Shown here one piece after another: positions 19,133-38,063 of a stretch of DNA of 45,449 bases (positions within the stretch are counted from its first letter, which is position 1; the number at the start of each line of letters is the position of its first letter). The translations under genes and the position numbers were made by a program. The stretch is taken from contig JAQUUH010000007.1 of NCBI GenBank assembly GCA_028693955.1, positions 1-45,449 of the forward strand. The letters run 5' to 3'. The notes beneath the pieces were generated by a model. It was not told the origin of the DNA. It worked only from the letters and a program-made list of their open reading frames with translations, and made no database searches. Source of the stretch: Bacilli bacterium. Lineage in GTDB: Bacteria > Bacillota_I > Bacilli_A > RFN20 > UBA1709.

Positions 19133-19146
19133 TTTAGTGATAAATT

Positions 19147-19289
19147 AAATAGGTGCATTATTGCATAAAAGGGAATAAAGTAAAAATCTTTAGCTGTCCC
19201 AGCAACTGTGATGCTGACGAAAAACAAAACCACTGATATTCGGGAAGGTGTTGAGTAGGAAGAAGCTAAGCCAGGAGACCTACCTATTT
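19147..19289 (+). ncRNA. Cobalamin riboswitch aptamer, upstream of B12 uptake genes
   Basis: This segment has the conserved cobalamin riboswitch elements in order: a closing P1 stem (AAATAGGT at 19147-19154 with ACCTATTT at 19282-19289), the AAAGGGAA segment, GCTGTCCCAGCAACTGTGAT, CCACTG, GGGAAGG, and the 3' box with AGCTAAGCCAGGAGACCTACC. The RNA senses cobalamin and would reduce expression of the downstream operon when the vitamin is plentiful. The expression platform (19290-19383) contains a possible terminator: AATCTTT at 19326-19332 pairs with AAAGATT at 19346-19352, followed by T residues. A competing pairing is GTATnnCCTGG with CCAGGTATAC. Confidence 0.93.
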
Positions 19290-19325
19290 TTTATCCATAA
19301 AGTATCTCCTGGGAATGGGACATTG

Positions 19326-28149: not shown

Positions 28150-29010
28150 CTATTTTTTGCTGAAAACTGGGAAATAACTAAATTCATCATAGCTATTTAT
28201 TGTTTCCATATTCAATAATGTTTGCATATCTTTATCACTAATATCAAAATCAACTAATGTATTATTTTTCATGTGCTCTATATTAGTCGTTTTTGGTAGT
28301 GGTAAACAATTCAACTTGAGTATATATTTAATGCATAATTGAGCAATTGATACATTATATTTTTTTGCTATTTCAGCAATTTTTTCGTTTCTTAGGACAA
28401 CCCCATGAGCAATAGGTGAATATGCTTCAACCAAAATATCATTATTTTTACAAAAATCAATAAGTGATTTTGGGGTATTGCTAATATGAATTAGAATTTG
28501 GTTCACCATAGGCTTGATTTCTGAGTTTTTTAATAAATTTTCTAAATTATCTTGTAAGAAGTTAGAAACTCCAATAGCTTTTACTAGACCATTTTTATAT
28601 GCTTCTTCTAATGCTCTCCAAACCTCTTTATTTTCTTCAAAATAACGTTCATTACTCCGCCACTTATCCCATGGTTGAGGAGCATGAATTAGCATTAAAT
28701 CAATATATTCTACATCTAAATCTTTAAGAGACTTATTTATTGATTCTTTTGTTTCAAGATATGTTTTGAATCCAGCATGAATTTTGCTAGTTATGAATAA
28801 TTCGTTTCTTGAAATGCCACTTTCTTTTATGCCTTTTCCAATACCTATTTCATTTTCATAAGCTTGAGCAGTATCAATATGTCTATAGCCTATTTCTATT
28901 GCACTTTTAACAATATCAACAACTTTTTGATTATCAACTAACCAAGTACCTAGACCTAATTTAGGAATTTCAATTCCATTACTTAAATTAAATTTTTCAT
29001 TTAAAATCAT
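28150..29010 (-). CDS. Aldo/keto reductase
   Basis: This NADPH-dependent carbonyl reductase has 286 residues and a TIM barrel. The catalytic tetrad is present: D46 and Y51 (HIDTAQAYENE), K76 (ITSKIH) and H109 (LIHAPQPW). Further family motifs are GVSNFLQDNL and the SIAQLCIKYIL segment. It is the first gene of the MerR-controlled operon. Unusually, no Shine-Dalgarno sequence precedes the ATG; the leader contains a large hairpin instead. A general role in aldehyde or methylglyoxal removal fits the operon, but the substrate is not defined. Confidence 0.93.
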   Translation of the reverse strand: MILNEKFNLSNGIEIPKLGLGTWLVDNQKVVDIVKSAIEIGYRHIDTAQAYENEIGIGKGIKESGISRNELFITSKIHAGFKTYLETKESINKSLKDLDVEYIDLMLIHAPQPWDKWRSNERYFEENKEVWRALEEAYKNGLVKAIGVSNFLQDNLENLLKNSEIKPMVNQILIHISNTPKSLIDFCKNNDILVEAYSPIAHGVVLRNEKIAEIAKKYNVSIAQLCIKYILKLNCLPLPKTTNIEHMKNNTLVDFDISDKDMQTLLNMETINSYDEFSYFPVFSKK

Positions 29011-29022
29011 ATTTCAATTTTC

Positions 29023-29057
29023 ATGTTCAGTGCTTATTTTTTTAAAAAACTGAACAT
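29023..29057. repeat. Inverted repeat in the leader of the MerR operon
   Basis: ATGTTCAGT (29023-29031) and ACTGAACAT (29049-29057) form a 9-bp perfect inverted repeat around 17 AT-rich bases that can pair further (T-run against A-run). It lies between the predicted transcription start and the ATG of the aldo/keto reductase gene. No T-run follows on the minus strand, so it is not an ordinary terminator. An mRNA-stabilising stem or a second protein-binding site is possible. Confidence 0.65.
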
Positions 29058-29086
29058 TTTTCCTCGCTTTCTTTTTATTTAATACC

Positions 29087-29117
29087 ACTATACAACTTAA
29101 AGTTAACTTTAAGTCAA
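29087..29117 (-). promoter_or_regulatory. MerR-type promoter with operator palindrome
   Basis: On the minus strand, TTGACT and TATAGT are separated by 19 bases, longer than the optimal 17. A perfect 20-bp palindrome (ACTTAAAGTT and its complement, 29095-29114) fills the spacer. This is the classical MerR arrangement, in which the regulator untwists the DNA to align the boxes. The cognate regulator is most likely the MerR protein at 25524-25958, the last gene of the operon. Confidence 0.85.
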
Positions 29118-29160
29118 GAACAAAGTTTAATAAAAATATGTTTGAGACTTATTTAAATAT

Positions 29161-29192
29161 AAAAAAGATGATTTTTTTGTTTATTCCATCTT
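29161..29192 (-). terminator. Probable terminator after tRNA-Ser
   Basis: On the minus strand AAGATG and CATCTT form a 6-bp stem with a 16-base loop, followed by TTTT. It lies 14 bases past the CCA end of the tRNA. Confidence 0.5.
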
Positions 29193-29205
29193 GAAGTTAT
29201 GGTTA

Positions 29206-29294
29206 TGGCGGAGAAAGGGGGATTTGAACCCCCGCATCGATTAAGACCTATTAGTTTTCGAAACTAACCCCTTCAACCACTTGGGTATTTCTCC
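29206..29294 (-). tRNA. tRNA-Ser (anticodon CGA)
   Basis: The minus strand folds as a class II tRNA. It has a GGAGAAA/TTTCTCC acceptor stem with encoded G-CCA end, and a D-arm with CCCAAGTGGTTGAAGGG. The anticodon stem TTAGT/ACTAA has loop TTCGAAA, giving anticodon CGA. A long variable arm and a GGGGG/CCCCC T-stem follow. It reads UCG codons. Confidence 0.93.
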
Positions 29295-29373
29295 ATGACA
29301 TGATTATACAATATAAATATTCTAAAATTAAGATTAATTTACTTTTATCTTGCTTTATAGTTGAAATAATACA

Positions 29374-29382
29374 TGATATAAT
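29374..29382 (+). promoter_or_regulatory. Extended -10 promoter for the GGDEF-EAL-like gene
   Basis: TGATATAAT is an extended -10 element. No convincing -35 box is at the right distance. It lies just upstream of an AGGCGGTGAT ribosome binding site. Confidence 0.45.
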
Positions 29383-29405
29383 CATAATTGTAGGCGGTGA
29401 TTGAT

Positions 29406-31127
29406 TTGTTGCTAGGCTATGTTGGAATATTTATTGGGTATATGTTACTTGTTTTTATTCCTTTAATTATATACATTATTTATCGTTTTTATTCTGAAAG
29501 GAAAAATAGTTTATCTAATAAAGTAATACTTGAAAGTAAGAGTAAAGAGATAAAAAATTTTAATGTTAGATTGGATTATAAAAATAAAAAAATTACTTAT
29601 TTTTGTCATAATTGTGAAATAGAACATGCAGATTATACTTTTAATGAACTTATGTCAATGATAAAAGATAAAAATAAAATAAAAGATTGGAATGAATGGA
29701 TTGATTCAATAGTAAATAATGATAAATTTGATATTGATTTTTTCTTGACCTTAAAAAAAGATATAGGATTTGCTCCAGTACTTTCAAAATTAACATATAA
29801 TTCGCTTGATAAAGATAAAGGAATTATATATTTAAAAGGATTCAATATTAAACAAGGCGACTTGATAAAAAGTAGAATAACCACAATAAATAGTTCTCCT
29901 GCATTTTCTTTTAGGTCTAGAATAAAAGGGCAAATAGAAAAGAATGCAAAAAATGATGGAATAATTATGATAATAAATTTTAATCTATATGATCTTATAA
30001 AAAGAAGATATTCTCAAAGTGAAGTCAAAACTTATTTAGCAACTTTGTGGGGGTTTTTTGAAAATTATGATGGGAAGAGTGATGTTGTTACTGGTATATA
30101 TAGATATGATAATGTTGTGGTTTACAATCCACATCTACATCATAAAAAAGAAATCGCTGAATATGTTGAATCTTTGCTTGATTCAATAGGTGATACAATA
30201 GCGTTTGATAATTTTCATTTTGAAATTAAGCCATGTGTAGGTTTTACAAAATTAGGCGAATTTACTGATAACATTGAGATTGCCCTAAAGCAAGCTTATA
30301 AAGTAGCATTAATTGCAAGAGAGCAAAATTTAAGAATTTTTGCCTATGATATAGAATTAGATAATAATGAAAAAGATAATTTAAAACTTATAGCAAAACT
30401 TAAAGACATGCTAGATAATAATTTACTAATTAATAAATATACCCCGGTCATTTCTCTTAGCAATGGAAATGAAATTGGATATTTTGCTGAGATTGATTTT
30501 AAAGAAACCAAGATTAAATCATTTTCTAATGCTTTAAAAATAGCTCAAGAAAATGGTTTTGAAAATGAATTTTTTGATGTTGCACTAGATAGTTGGTTTA
30601 GTAATTTTGTTTTTAAGCAAGATTATTCAAACAATAGACTATTTGTTTTTTGTGATTCAGATTTATTGAATGAATTTACAAGTGTTTATTTATCAAAAGA
30701 GGAATATAAAAAAGTTTCTTTAATTTTAGTAATAACAGATTATGAAGAATTAATATATGATCACGAAAGTATTGAAACAATTGAAAAAATAAGTAACAGT
30801 GGGATTCGTCTTGGTATAACAGCCTCACAAATAATGCAAACTACAGTTCATCAAATATTGAGAAAAATAGATTATTTAGTATGGCCAGTTAAGTTGACAA
30901 AAAATATTTTGAAAGATGAAAAAAATAAATTAATTGTTAATAATATCATTGAATCTTTAAATAATTATAATCTTATTTCAGTAGCATGGAATATAGCAAA
31001 TTATCAGCAAGCAGAGTACTTAAAAAATATTGGAATTATGAATATGTCAGGTTTGCTTTTTGAAAAAGGGAATAGTGTTGCAAGTGAAATATATTCTATT
31101 CGAAGATTAAATAAATTAATTGGGTGA
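29406..31127 (+). CDS. Membrane protein with degenerate GGDEF and EAL domains
   Basis: This 573-residue protein has one N-terminal membrane helix (about residues 3-28). A cytoplasmic PAS-like region follows (about 45-150, with KKITYFCHNCEIE). A GGDEF-like domain covers about 165-320: the signature position reads YRYDNVVVY instead of GGDEF, although the late GFTKLGEF and final AYD segments are recognisable. The remainder is EAL-like. There the EAL motif reads YFAEID, the DDFG stretch reads GITASQ, the KID position reads VKLTKN and the AEGVE position reads VAWNIA. All catalytic residues for making or cleaving cyclic di-GMP therefore appear lost. The start is TTG, eight bases after a near-perfect ribosome binding site; a GTG at 29397 lies within that site. 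A ProRS-like gene follows four bases later. Sensor or scaffold role inferred. Confidence 0.72.
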   Translation: MLLGYVGIFIGYMLLVFIPLIIYIIYRFYSERKNSLSNKVILESKSKEIKNFNVRLDYKNKKITYFCHNCEIEHADYTFNELMSMIKDKNKIKDWNEWIDSIVNNDKFDIDFFLTLKKDIGFAPVLSKLTYNSLDKDKGIIYLKGFNIKQGDLIKSRITTINSSPAFSFRSRIKGQIEKNAKNDGIIMIINFNLYDLIKRRYSQSEVKTYLATLWGFFENYDGKSDVVTGIYRYDNVVVYNPHLHHKKEIAEYVESLLDSIGDTIAFDNFHFEIKPCVGFTKLGEFTDNIEIALKQAYKVALIAREQNLRIFAYDIELDNNEKDNLKLIAKLKDMLDNNLLINKYTPVISLSNGNEIGYFAEIDFKETKIKSFSNALKIAQENGFENEFFDVALDSWFSNFVFKQDYSNNRLFVFCDSDLLNEFTSVYLSKEEYKKVSLILVITDYEELIYDHESIETIEKISNSGIRLGITASQIMQTTVHQILRKIDYLVWPVKLTKNILKDEKNKLIVNNIIESLNNYNLISVAWNIANYQQAEYLKNIGIMNMSGLLFEKGNSVASEIYSIRRLNKLIG

Positions 31128-31131
31128 AAAC

Positions 31132-32259
31132 ATGAATAGTTTAAATAAAATGTTGTGCGAAATATCTTTTGCTACCAGATTAAATGGTGAAGTTTTACTT
31201 CTAGATTATGGCAGTAGTGTTTTTGATAATATATTGAGTATGATAGATGAAAAATTAATTTTAACTAATCATAAAAAAATTAAAACTTCAAAAGGTGACT
31301 GTCAAATTGCTAGTAAAAATGGCGCGCCTAAATCTTTGTTTTTTGACTATATAAGAAAAGTTGGATCCACAAAATATTTTTCAAGAGAAGTTGAGGCATA
31401 TTTTAAAGAAATTCAACCAGCAAGACATGAACAATTACAAAATGTTGAATTGTTTTCTAGGGTTATTAAAGAAATAATCAATCTTCCTATTATTAGTGGC
31501 AAACTTTTAATTAACAAGGATGAAACTTATTATATTGGGGTCATAACTTCTAAAGGAATAATTGAGATAGCAAGATCAATTTTAAAAAAGGATGAAAATG
31601 GCTATTATGTTAGGAGTTATTTTTTAAGTAAAATATTAGATGCCATTGCAATTTATAGTAATGATGAAGAAGGAGTAATTTTATCTCCAGCAATAGCTCC
31701 ATATCTTGCGGTTATAATACCTATCAATATCGCTCAAAAAGGTGTTAATAAAAAGTGTAAAGAACTTTTAGATAAACTAGAAAAAAAAGGATTAAAAGTT
31801 CTTTATGATGAAACCAGTGAAACCCATACAAAAAAGCATGAATATTATCTAAAAATTGGGGTGCCACTTATAATTGAAATAGGTATAAAAGATGTTGAAG
31901 GGAATTCTCTTAATTTATTTGTTAGGTTTAATAAAGAATTTATAAGAATTGATACAAAATTATTTGTTGATGATATAGAATTATATTTAACTAAAATGCA
32001 GAATGATTTATATAAAAAAGCACTTACTTTTACTGTTAATTCAATTAGAAATTCTTCTGATTTTACAAACGATAAATGTGTTAATGTAATCACAAAAATT
32101 CAATGTTGTGATAAAGAAAAGTGCTTAGAAAAACTTAAAAAAATGAAAGATAGAGTAATATTAGTTCCATTTAATCAAAACTCTAACAGCAATTGTTATT
32201 TTTGTAATTCTAGTGAGTGTGATAGTTATTATTTAATTAAGAAATATAAAAGTGTATAA
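31132..32259 (+). CDS. Degenerate prolyl-tRNA synthetase-like protein
   Basis: This 375-residue protein resembles archaeal-type (type 3) prolyl-tRNA synthetase but is about 100 residues shorter. The segment EGVILSPAIAPYLAVIIPI near residue 185 matches the junction into the anticodon-binding domain. It is followed by the KGLKVLYDETSETHTKKH, GVPLIIEIGIKDVEGN and C-terminal zinc-domain features (CCDKEKC, then CYFC, ending LIKKYKSV). The N-terminal part keeps the motif-1-like LLLDYGSSVFDNI, but the region of class II motif 2, the proline pocket and motif 3 is shrunk or replaced. Aminoacylation is therefore unlikely. It follows the degenerate GGDEF-EAL gene by four bases. Function unknown; tRNA binding or regulation is inferred. 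Confidence 0.7.
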   Translation: MNSLNKMLCEISFATRLNGEVLLLDYGSSVFDNILSMIDEKLILTNHKKIKTSKGDCQIASKNGAPKSLFFDYIRKVGSTKYFSREVEAYFKEIQPARHEQLQNVELFSRVIKEIINLPIISGKLLINKDETYYIGVITSKGIIEIARSILKKDENGYYVRSYFLSKILDAIAIYSNDEEGVILSPAIAPYLAVIIPINIAQKGVNKKCKELLDKLEKKGLKVLYDETSETHTKKHEYYLKIGVPLIIEIGIKDVEGNSLNLFVRFNKEFIRIDTKLFVDDIELYLTKMQNDLYKKALTFTVNSIRNSSDFTNDKCVNVITKIQCCDKEKCLEKLKKMKDRVILVPFNQNSNSNCYFCNSSECDSYYLIKKYKSV

Positions 32260-32317
32260 TATTGATTTATTCTTTCTTATAATGTAAAATAAAAGCGTTT
32301 ATCTAAGGGGTGTTTTC

Positions 32318-33517
32318 ATGGTTCCACATTTTAGACATAAAGCCTTCAACAAGATACTTAAACCCTTTATACGGGCTTTCCTTTTTTGCTTTTATGGATA
32401 TAAAGCAAAAGTCTATAAAAATTTGAAGGAAAACTATTTAATTATATCTAACCATGTGACCCAAATTGATCCAATAATGTTATCACTTTCTTTTAAAAAG
32501 CCAATTTATTTTGTTGCAAGTGATGACATTTTTTCTATAAAAATAATTAGTTCTTTATTAGAATATTTTATGTCACCGATTTCTAAAACTAAAAATGAAA
32601 TTGATATTTCAACTACAAAAAACATTATTTCTATGATGAAAAATGGTGGATCTGTAGGTATATTTATTTCTGGTAATGCTACATATTCCGGAGTTGAAGA
32701 ATATATACCAAGTCCAATAGCAAGATTAGTAAAAAAAATTGGTAAGCCATTAATTTTGTATAACATAATCGGTTGTTATGGAGTTGCACCACGGTGGGGT
32801 GAAAAATTAAGAAAAGGAAAGTGTTCTGGGCAAATAAAAAGGATAATTTTACCTAGTGAATATAACAATATGACAGATGAAGAATTAGATGAAATAATTA
32901 AAAATGAAATTAATGTTGATGCTTTAAAAAATGATAATAGATATTATAATTGTAAAAATAGAGCTCATTTTTTAGAAAGAGCATTATTTGTTTGTCCAGA
33001 TTGTGGAAGTATTGGAAGCCTGAAAAGTGAAAAAAATAGTATAAGGTGTGAAAAATGTGGTTATGAAGCTGAATATCAAGAAGATTTAACGTTCAAATTA
33101 ATAAAAGGGAAAATTCATTTTCATAGTGTCAAACAATGGTATGATTATCAAAAAGGTTATTTATATGATTTTGATTATGATAAATACGAAGATGAAGATC
33201 CAATAAAAATTGATAATGATATTTATTTTATTTTAAATCATAGATTAAAACATAAAGAGACTTTGATTTTTAAAGGACAATCTCGTTTATATAAAAATAG
33301 AATTGAGATTGAAAAAAATGATGCTAAAATAACTTTGAACTTTACTGATATAAAATCAATGAGTGTTCAAGGTAAAAATAAATTATTATTACATGTCGAT
33401 GATAAATATTATCAGATACGCGGAAATAAAAGAAGAAGTGGAGTATTATATATGTTTATTTATTACTCACTAAAAAACAAGAAAGAGGGTAAATGCAATG
33501 GTTTTTTGGGAATATGA
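32318..33517 (+). CDS. PlsC-like acyltransferase with C-terminal zinc ribbon, motif III degenerate
   Basis: This 399-residue protein starts with a lysophospholipid acyltransferase domain (about residues 1-190) carrying the catalytic NHVTQID motif (H46 and D51). The usual FPEG substrate-binding motif reads FISG (116-119), so the conserved glutamate is missing. A four-cysteine zinc ribbon follows (C226, C229, C244, C247), then a WYDYQ segment and a C-terminal domain of about 90 residues with alternating strands that looks PH/GRAM-like. A paralogue with intact motifs (YPEG) is at 44512. The gene overlaps the following GltS gene by 20 bases. Acyl transfer may be impaired or altered. Confidence 0.8.
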   Translation: MVPHFRHKAFNKILKPFIRAFLFCFYGYKAKVYKNLKENYLIISNHVTQIDPIMLSLSFKKPIYFVASDDIFSIKIISSLLEYFMSPISKTKNEIDISTTKNIISMMKNGGSVGIFISGNATYSGVEEYIPSPIARLVKKIGKPLILYNIIGCYGVAPRWGEKLRKGKCSGQIKRIILPSEYNNMTDEELDEIIKNEINVDALKNDNRYYNCKNRAHFLERALFVCPDCGSIGSLKSEKNSIRCEKCGYEAEYQEDLTFKLIKGKIHFHSVKQWYDYQKGYLYDFDYDKYEDEDPIKIDNDIYFILNHRLKHKETLIFKGQSRLYKNRIEIEKNDAKITLNFTDIKSMSVQGKNKLLLHVDDKYYQIRGNKRRSGVLYMFIYYSLKNKKEGKCNGFLGI

Positions 33518-34910
33518 TATGTGGAGTTCAATGATTCAAATAGGGATTTTATGTTTAATACTTTTATTATCAAACATTTTAAGAAGAAAAGTTCCTTTTT
33601 TAAGGAAATCACTTTTGCCAACTGCAGTTATTGGGGGTTTTGTTACCTTGATTTTGAAAAGCATTGGTTTGTTAGATAATATTCTAATAACAGACTTTTT
33701 AGATAAAATAACATACCATGCTTTATGTATAGGATTTATTGCATTAGGACTAAAGACAGCTTATGGTCAAGGAGAATTACAAAATAAAAAAGTTTTAAAA
33801 GATGGAATTAATAGTGGATTGATTATTGTTGGAACATATTTAATACAAGCCGTTATTGGATTGGGAATAACTATAGTGTTAGCGTATACTATATTCCCTG
33901 ACTTATTTGCTGCAAGTGGGATATTGTTGCCATTAGGATTTGGTCAAGGACCAGGTCAGGCAAATAACTTTGGAACTAATTTTGAATTGCAATATGGTTT
34001 TATAGGTGGTAAATCATTTGGTCTTTCTATAGCAAGTTTAGGCTTTATTTGGGCTTGTGCTTTAGGAGTAATTTATATGAATTACTTAATTCGCAAAGGA
34101 AAATTAACTAGGAATGATAATAAAAAAACGGGTGAAACAAATATAGGTGAACTTGTTTCTCAAGAAGATGAAATTCCTCTTGCAGAAGCTATTGACAAAT
34201 TTACTGTTCAAATATGTTTAGTAATGTTAGTTTTTATGACTAGCTTTGGTTTTATGTGGGGGTTTGATAAATTATTTATTGAAACTGGAATTTTTGGTAA
34301 TTTTGGAGTGAATACATTACGTCCACTTATTTGGGGATTTAATTTTATCTTTGGAACATTATTTGCTTTACTATATAAAAAGATATTTAGAGGTTTAAAA
34401 AGTGTTCATTTAATGAATAGAGTATATACTAATAATTTTATGTTAAATAGAATTGCCGGAGTCGTTTTTGATTTTATGATAATTGCTGCAATTTCTGCAA
34501 TTAATATTGAAGTTATGTCTGATTTATGGGTGCCATTCTTTATTATTACTACATTTGGTGGTGTTATTACTTTCTTGTATGTAAAATATTTATCAAAAAT
34601 TTTCTACAAAGATTATAAAATACCGGGATTTCTTGCAATGTATGGAATGTTAACAGGAACTGCAAGTACTGGTGTGGCATTATTAAGAGAGGTTGACCCA
34701 GATTTTAAAACTCCAGCATCAAATAATCTTGTTACTGGAAGTACTGCAGCAATAGTTTTTGGATTTCCTCTTATGTTGATAATAGGACTTGCACCAAATA
34801 TGCCAGGACTTGCTTGGATAATTTTGCTTTTCTTCTTTTTGGTAATAAACATCTTATTATTTAGAGCACAATTAAAAAGGAAATTTCAGAAAAAATCTCA
34901 AAATCAGTAG
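33498..34910 (+). CDS. gltS: Sodium/glutamate symporter, GltS family
   Basis: This 470-residue membrane protein has about ten to twelve helices. It shows the GltS pattern of two inverted halves with glycine-rich re-entrant segments: LPLGFGQGPGQANNFG in the first half and GMLTGTASTGVALLREVDP in the second. The N-terminal RRKVPFLRKSLLPTAVIGGF segment is also typical. It imports glutamate with sodium ions. The start follows GAGGG by about nine bases and overlaps the end of the acyltransferase gene, arguing for cotranscription. The link to acyltransferase function is unclear. Confidence 0.87.
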   Translation: MVFWEYDMWSSMIQIGILCLILLLSNILRRKVPFLRKSLLPTAVIGGFVTLILKSIGLLDNILITDFLDKITYHALCIGFIALGLKTAYGQGELQNKKVLKDGINSGLIIVGTYLIQAVIGLGITIVLAYTIFPDLFAASGILLPLGFGQGPGQANNFGTNFELQYGFIGGKSFGLSIASLGFIWACALGVIYMNYLIRKGKLTRNDNKKTGETNIGELVSQEDEIPLAEAIDKFTVQICLVMLVFMTSFGFMWGFDKLFIETGIFGNFGVNTLRPLIWGFNFIFGTLFALLYKKIFRGLKSVHLMNRVYTNNFMLNRIAGVVFDFMIIAAISAINIEVMSDLWVPFFIITTFGGVITFLYVKYLSKIFYKDYKIPGFLAMYGMLTGTASTGVALLREVDPDFKTPASNNLVTGSTAAIVFGFPLMLIIGLAPNMPGLAWIILLFFFLVINILLFRAQLKRKFQKKSQNQ

Positions 34911-37845: not shown

Positions 37846-37864
37846 CAATGGCACATATGTGATG

Positions 37865-38013
37865 GTATGAGTGTAAAACTTAAAAGGGAAACAGGTTGAA
37901 TTCCTGTGCGGTCCCGCCGCCGTAATGATGAGAGTGTATGTATAACTCACTGGTACTTAGTATTGGGAAGAGACATATACTTGTTGAATCTAAGCCGGAA
38001 GACCTGCTTATAC
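37865..38013 (+). ncRNA. Cobalamin riboswitch aptamer, upstream of nrdDG
   Basis: Conserved cobalamin riboswitch elements appear in order: closing stem GTATGAG (37865-37871) with CTTATAC (38007-38013), AAAAGGGAA, the ACAGG...CCTGT stem, GCGGTCCCGCCGCCGTAAT, CACTGG, TTGGGAAG, and the 3' box CTAAGCCGGAAGACCTGC. The expression platform (38014-38132) includes a CTCCACGGAG hairpin, a GC-rich hairpin with T-run and a CTCCATGGAG palindrome near the ribosome binding site. It is expected to lower nrdDG expression when adenosylcobalamin is plentiful. Confidence 0.94.
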
Positions 38014-38063
38014 TTATCTCGCCTCCACGGAGTATGGTTGTAGCGGGTATGCGGTTTTTTTGC

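Follow-up and report, generated by a model that had tools for sequence, protein, structure and literature searches.

Two genes lie in tandem on the forward strand of the window, by which is meant the whole 45,449-nucleotide stretch of DNA analysed here. The first, ORF1 (29397/29406-31127), encodes a membrane PAS-GGDEF-EAL-like pseudoenzyme, here called EALp, which was delineated over 29406-31127 by Pfam, profile, structure-model and alignment evidence. The second, ORF2 (31132-32259), encodes a shortened derivative of an E-type ProRS, 375 aa in length and here called pseudo-ProRS, which was recognised from family models, alignment and a structure match. A gap of 4 bases separates the stop codon of ORF1 from the ATG of ORF2. 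By direct reading of the sequence, ORF1 most likely starts at the TTG at 29406, which stands behind AGGCGGTG, with the GTG at 29397 as a possible alternative. The codon-position composition is of the coding type in both ORF1 and ORF2, and the longest stop-free run across 30 Markov windows reached 164 codons. Hence, neither is a chance ORF.

The first-pass annotation described these genes as two apparent pseudoenzymes lying side by side and sharing one visible promoter. The former description is borne out, as both proteins lack catalytic residues in the window, and the latter stands in part. An extended -10 promoter-like site (TTTATA-17-TATAAT; 29354-29382, forward strand), identified by consensus match only, is the sole good candidate upstream of the unit, and a scan of 28900-32700 found nothing terminator-like. 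Such matches occur often in this AT-rich DNA, with 37 found against 29 expected, so that the promoter can be called plausible at most. Barring a divergent tRNA-Ser upstream, no Rfam elements were found at or between the two genes. Downstream of the unit, 32318-33517 encodes a PlsC-like acyltransferase and then a zinc-ribbon stretch, and overlaps a gene for a divergent relative of sodium/glutamate symporters (33498-34910). The window also contains two cobalamin riboswitches (19134-19301 and 37852-38025), within a genome of 0.9 Mb.

Domains and lost active sites of EALp and pseudo-ProRS

EALp begins with a hydrophobic helix (29409-29489) that probably spans the membrane once and has basic residues after it; in the structure model it appears as one long helix. 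The span was judged from the sequence and this model helix. The AlphaFold2 model, computed for a single chain (mean pLDDT 74), continues with three domains, namely PAS-like, GGDEF-fold and EAL-fold, and a structure search found it to resemble 5m3c, DosP, LapD and YkuI. The PAS-like domain (residues about 54-150; 29556-29846) was assigned from the order of strands and helices in the model; PAS-GGDEF-EAL chains match EALp in Foldseek, and the confidence of the PAS-like part is 50-79. The degenerate GGDEF-fold domain (residues about 163-316; 29883-30344) rests on profile and structure matches. The degenerate EAL-fold domain (residues about 330-557; 30384-31067) is supported by Pfam, alignment and a structure match, with a divergent EAL domain scoring over the cut-off (Pfam EAL, E=1.4e-12) and a fold that aligns at VIA-align Z 19-20 and an rmsd of about 3 Å across about 225 residues. 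A profile built from 25 EALp relatives also matched PDB GGDEF-EAL structures by sequence.

When compared to three class-mate proteins that retain EAL and DDFG, the window EALp lacks the EAL Glu, DDFG, the Glu of AEG[VI]E and the Gln of QG[YF]. Among 25 members of the family, DDFG and the AEG[VI]E Glu are found in none, and the EAL Glu and QG[YF] Gln in one each. Judged by these signature positions, the EALp family as a whole is catalytically dead. The family is incompletely recognised by annotation, with Pfam matching EAL in 13/25 members and GGDEF in 3/25 (E<=0.01 for GGDEF). The sequence of the window EALp also has no GG[DE]EF motif. The only GGDEF gene of the window genome (locus L178; contig C31, 1240-2345, reverse strand, motif RYGGDEF) is split across two overlapping frames of 242 and 127 aa, an apparent frameshift or assembly error.

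Pseudo-ProRS corresponds to the second half of the family-I, or E-type, ProRS (TIGR00408, E=8e-23), which is the eukaryote/archaeon-like form, and is about 100 residues below E-type length. Foldseek pairs its model with ProRS structures (E about 4e-16), and the model is confident over the anticodon-binding domain only (pLDDT about 80-90), with low confidence for the remnant of the catalytic core. In this class II core remnant (31132-31611) the proline pocket and motif 2 are deleted and the motif 3 Arg is changed. The other five aligned pseudo-ProRS have likewise lost or altered RPTSE, motif 2 and the motif 3 Arg. The anticodon-binding domain (residues 193-280; 31708-31971) scores over the Pfam cut-off (HGTP_anticodon, E=2.8e-13). 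It is followed by a C-terminal domain (32089-32256) with a predicted zinc site formed by Cys 326, 331, 355 and 358, and with PFNQ but without the terminal Tyr. The C-terminal AKAY end is missing from 6/6 aligned copies; most E-type ProRS use the C-terminal Tyr to stabilise their active site (PMC12152171).

This loss is uneven along the protein. Of the conserved positions defined against 16 full-length relatives, the window pseudo-ProRS keeps 18/145 in the core, where 54 are deleted, 19/32 in the anticodon domain and 4/14 in the C-terminal part. All four zinc-site Cys residues are present in the window copy, and the tetrad is found in 9 of 10 pseudo-ProRS copies. As read from these alignments, retention is selective, the anticodon domain and zinc part being preferentially kept relative to the core. 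Key residues of the anticodon domain, in the YEMKGVP motif, are also altered, and given these changes tRNA binding may have been lost. All ten copies are open frames of 329-375 aa with about 22-28% identity to the window copy, and with branch lengths of 2-9 their divergence precludes a reliable tree.

Conservation of the pair across the order

EALp is order-specific, near-universal and single-copy. It was found in 138 of the 147 genomes sampled from the order, nearly throughout as a single copy, and the matches in two genomes (G001 and G009) appear to be other GGDEF proteins. Outside the order, no full-length EALp was found among 296 genomes sampled class-wide, where matches are partial and mostly cover the GGDEF part. 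A contig scan with the window protein as the query matched no relative.

Among the 127 genomes with both genes, EALp stands directly 5' of an E-type ProRS or pseudo-ProRS on the same strand in 110, and such adjacent pairs occur in four families (f1, f4, f5 and f6). The two are apart in 17 genomes, mainly from families f2 and f3; at least two cases, from f4/f5, look like contig-end cuts. In f2 and f3 generally, as at loci L081 and L098, the E-type ProRS lies away from EALp and the unit was either broken or never formed. An independent scan of named genomes, mostly MAGs from gut and rumen that were deposited under Bacilli, Erysipelotrichaceae or Bacillales bacterium, found the pair in 45/45 uncut loci with gaps of -53 to +37 bp. 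The flanking genes are far less constant: the commonest neighbour is shared by 24/62 loci upstream and 10/61 downstream, and the neighbours of the window unit recur at none of the other loci compared. The pair is conserved while its surroundings are not. Chance, which the first-pass annotation would have accepted had homologues been mostly separate, does not account for the pairing.

EALp followed by an E-type ProRS is a widespread two-gene unit, and probably the ancestral one, in this order, whose members are uncultured Bacilli. The usual partner of EALp is an intact ProRS, and two adjacent pseudoenzymes are a derived state. The picture drawn from the window alone is thus reversed: in the normal state a live ProRS accompanies a dead GGDEF-EAL protein, and the dead pair remains where another ProRS does the charging. 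The genomic association supports a link to ProRS, but the partner is normally a working enzyme and the dead form accompanies a P-type ProRS.

Several candidate variants of the unit were rejected. An apparent EALp-ProRS fusion in G042, a 940-aa open frame, is merely an overlapping open frame, and an apparently truncated ProRS in G001 is a full-length ProRS cut by the contig end. Joint loss of EALp and ProRS in G031, G115, G120 and G127 was left uncounted, as these assemblies lack any ProRS and the locus is most likely missing from them. A possible connection to the unknown genes in minimal genomes of mycoplasmas was also dropped, since no paper was found by locus name and no full-length EALp occurs outside the order.

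Replacement of the E-type ProRS and conversion of its gene

P-type ProRS, recognised by NF006625, is encoded by 25 genomes, of which 10 have pseudo-ProRS, 13 have no E-type remnant that was found, and 2 have an intact E-type enzyme. Every genome with pseudo-ProRS carries a P-type ProRS (10/10) compared to 2 of about 119 genomes with an intact E-type; in the window genome it is a 571-aa protein encoded on contig C18. The P-type enzyme presumably arrived before the E-type lost catalysis. G079 and G094, the only 2 of 147 genomes with both an intact E-type and a P-type ProRS, could be intermediates of this replacement.

The dead genes occupy the positions of live ones. Pseudo-ProRS stands directly behind EALp in the window genome and in G008. 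In family f2, it is found in all eight genomes of genus g24 and adjoins a divergent NAD synthase gene in six of them; the same NAD synthase gene adjoins the intact E-type ProRS of G056, from the sister genus g19. As intact and dead forms share their neighbours, EALp in one setting and NAD synthase in the other, the E-type gene was converted in place at least twice. Because all pseudo-ProRS branches are very long, the question of a single origin was approached by synteny in place of a tree. That 8/8 sampled species of g24 keep the dead ProRS indicates retention, not decay.

Eleven P-type genomes encode EALp with no remnant of ProRS-I found, which speaks against an obligate partnership. When scored against an f4/f5 profile, EALp of family f2 reaches 221-317 bits in genomes with a remaining E-type or pseudo-ProRS and 114-244 bits in those without, a contrast that lends the partnership weak support and is confounded by phylogeny.

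Possible roles of the unit and comparison with known systems

A GGDEF domain is lacking in 93 of the 147 genomes, and 88 of these 93 have EALp, which is therefore independent of c-di-GMP. Its presence in 88 genomes without any GGDEF gene argues for a protein-binding role. The link to nucleotide signalling suggested by the first-pass annotation finds no support, as regards c-di-GMP, in these genomes or in the active site, which is kept by no aligned member. Degenerate GGDEF-EAL proteins can act as c-di-GMP receptors (PMC3032553), and the GGDEF-EAL fold of EALp (Z 21.9 to LapD 6pwk) would suit a receptor of the LapD kind that couples ProRS to c-di-GMP. This role is nevertheless highly unlikely given the 88 genomes without a GGDEF domain, the apparent frameshift in the sole GGDEF gene of the window genome and the loss of signature EAL positions throughout the 25 members.

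The explanation preferred here, at a probability of roughly 0.45, is that the E-type ProRS has a second, non-catalytic job, most likely the binding of EALp, which pseudo-ProRS preserves. This job would be carried by the anticodon-binding and zinc C-terminal parts of the enzyme, and pseudo-ProRS would keep it once catalysis had become redundant. As in CsrD and LapD, though here without c-di-GMP, the dead GGDEF-EAL module may serve as a membrane-anchored module for docking and switching, and the PAS-like domain may be its input. ProRS, or its dead remnant, would be the docked partner and might relay the status of proline or tRNA-Pro. Direct contact between EALp and ProRS is inferred, yet such contact cannot be obligatory, as 11 genomes with EALp yielded no ProRS-I remnant and in 17 the two lie apart. 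The extreme divergence of pseudo-ProRS also counts against this explanation, being what is expected if constraint is weak, as do the altered residues of its anticodon domain. A broader and rather speculative version, which is unlikely to hold in full, places the E-type ProRS permanently in a membrane complex that also contains a GGDEF-EAL-fold protein, one that has persisted beyond c-di-GMP. This complex would sense the state of proline or tRNA-Pro, a role of enough importance for ProRS to have been kept repeatedly as a pseudoenzyme once another ProRS had taken over catalysis.

It may instead be that EALp and ProRS are co-transcribed for shared regulation or dosage without any contact, with pseudo-ProRS recruited to an unrelated job, such as RNA or protein binding, and placed beside EALp by history. 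The short spacing and single promoter-like site are compatible with such a plain operon, as are the separation of EALp and ProRS in f2 and f3 and the retention of g24 pseudo-ProRS beside NAD synthase and not EALp. Against it, the pair has survived extensive reshuffling of both flanks and has stayed together in the window genome and G008 even after catalysis was lost, and this account is a real, if doubtful, possibility. Simple decay is harder to sustain. Pseudo-ProRS could be functionless and redundant since the P-type takeover, its open frame being transient, which would explain its invariable company of a P-type ProRS, its fast and irregular divergence (branch lengths 2-9) and the 13 P-type genomes with no detected remnant. 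Against this, all ten copies have uninterrupted frames of 329-375 aa although they share only about 22-28% identity with the window copy, all eight g24 species retain the gene, codon-position composition is normal and the zinc Cys tetrad persists in 9/10 copies, making decay improbable.

The strict co-occurrence with P-type ProRS and the retained anticodon-binding fold also raise the idea that pseudo-ProRS works in trans with the P-type enzyme, for example as a tRNA-Pro binding or assembly factor, its site behind EALp being incidental. As 13 P-type genomes manage without it, residues of its anticodon domain are changed, and E- and P-type ProRS reportedly do not cross-acylate each other's tRNA-Pro (PMC12152171), there is very little to recommend a role of this kind.

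These genomes present a natural experiment in which a second, different ProRS makes the old catalysis redundant and what selection keeps points to the non-catalytic function. The retention of a ProRS without an active site in several lineages makes a hidden, non-translational role of ProRS directly testable. Beyond this, the analysis exposes a near-universal, order-specific family with the GGDEF-EAL fold that exists without c-di-GMP.

By sequence, the E-type ProRS, as represented by that of Thermus thermophilus (1h4q/1h4s), is the direct ancestor of pseudo-ProRS. The two have the anticodon-binding domain, the C-terminal zinc domain and the class II core or its remnant in common, but pseudo-ProRS is without the proline pocket, motif 2, motif 3 Arg and C-terminal Tyr. 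EALp differs from CsrD of E. coli in scoring 19.6 bits on the CsrD family HMM (cut-off 663), in having a PAS-like domain in place of HAMP, and in its link to ProRS and not to RNase E/CsrB. It resembles LapD (Z 21.9) as a membrane protein with a dual degenerate GGDEF-EAL module; however, LapD binds c-di-GMP as a receptor and has a periplasmic output, and the majority of EALp-bearing genomes lack a GGDEF domain. GdpP, with its TM-PAS-degenerate GGDEF-DHH arrangement, shares with EALp the TM, PAS and degenerate GGDEF parts and an occurrence in low-GC Gram-positives, but ends in a catalytic DHH/DHHA1 region where EALp ends in a dead EAL domain.

HisZ and other non-synthetases derived from aaRS provide a precedent for pseudo-ProRS, HisZ being a class II paralogue without aminoacylation that is kept for regulation (PMC9437257). 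Like HisZ, pseudo-ProRS is a class II synthetase relative predicted to have no aminoacylation activity. Descent from HisRS is not supported, as the best-matching families are ProRS. HisZ derives from HisRS and regulates HisG, whereas pseudo-ProRS derives from ProRS and has EALp as its neighbour, and its conversion follows displacement of the enzyme, not duplication alone. ProRSx of Streptomyces is also a second ProRS-derived gene, but it is active and charges a variant tRNA (PMC9437257), in contrast to pseudo-ProRS with its missing active site. The open-access literature searched yielded no description of an EAL/ProRS pair. The parts are of known kinds, an aaRS-derived pseudoenzyme and a degenerate GGDEF-EAL protein, while their combination and the repeated conversion of the ProRS appear to be new.
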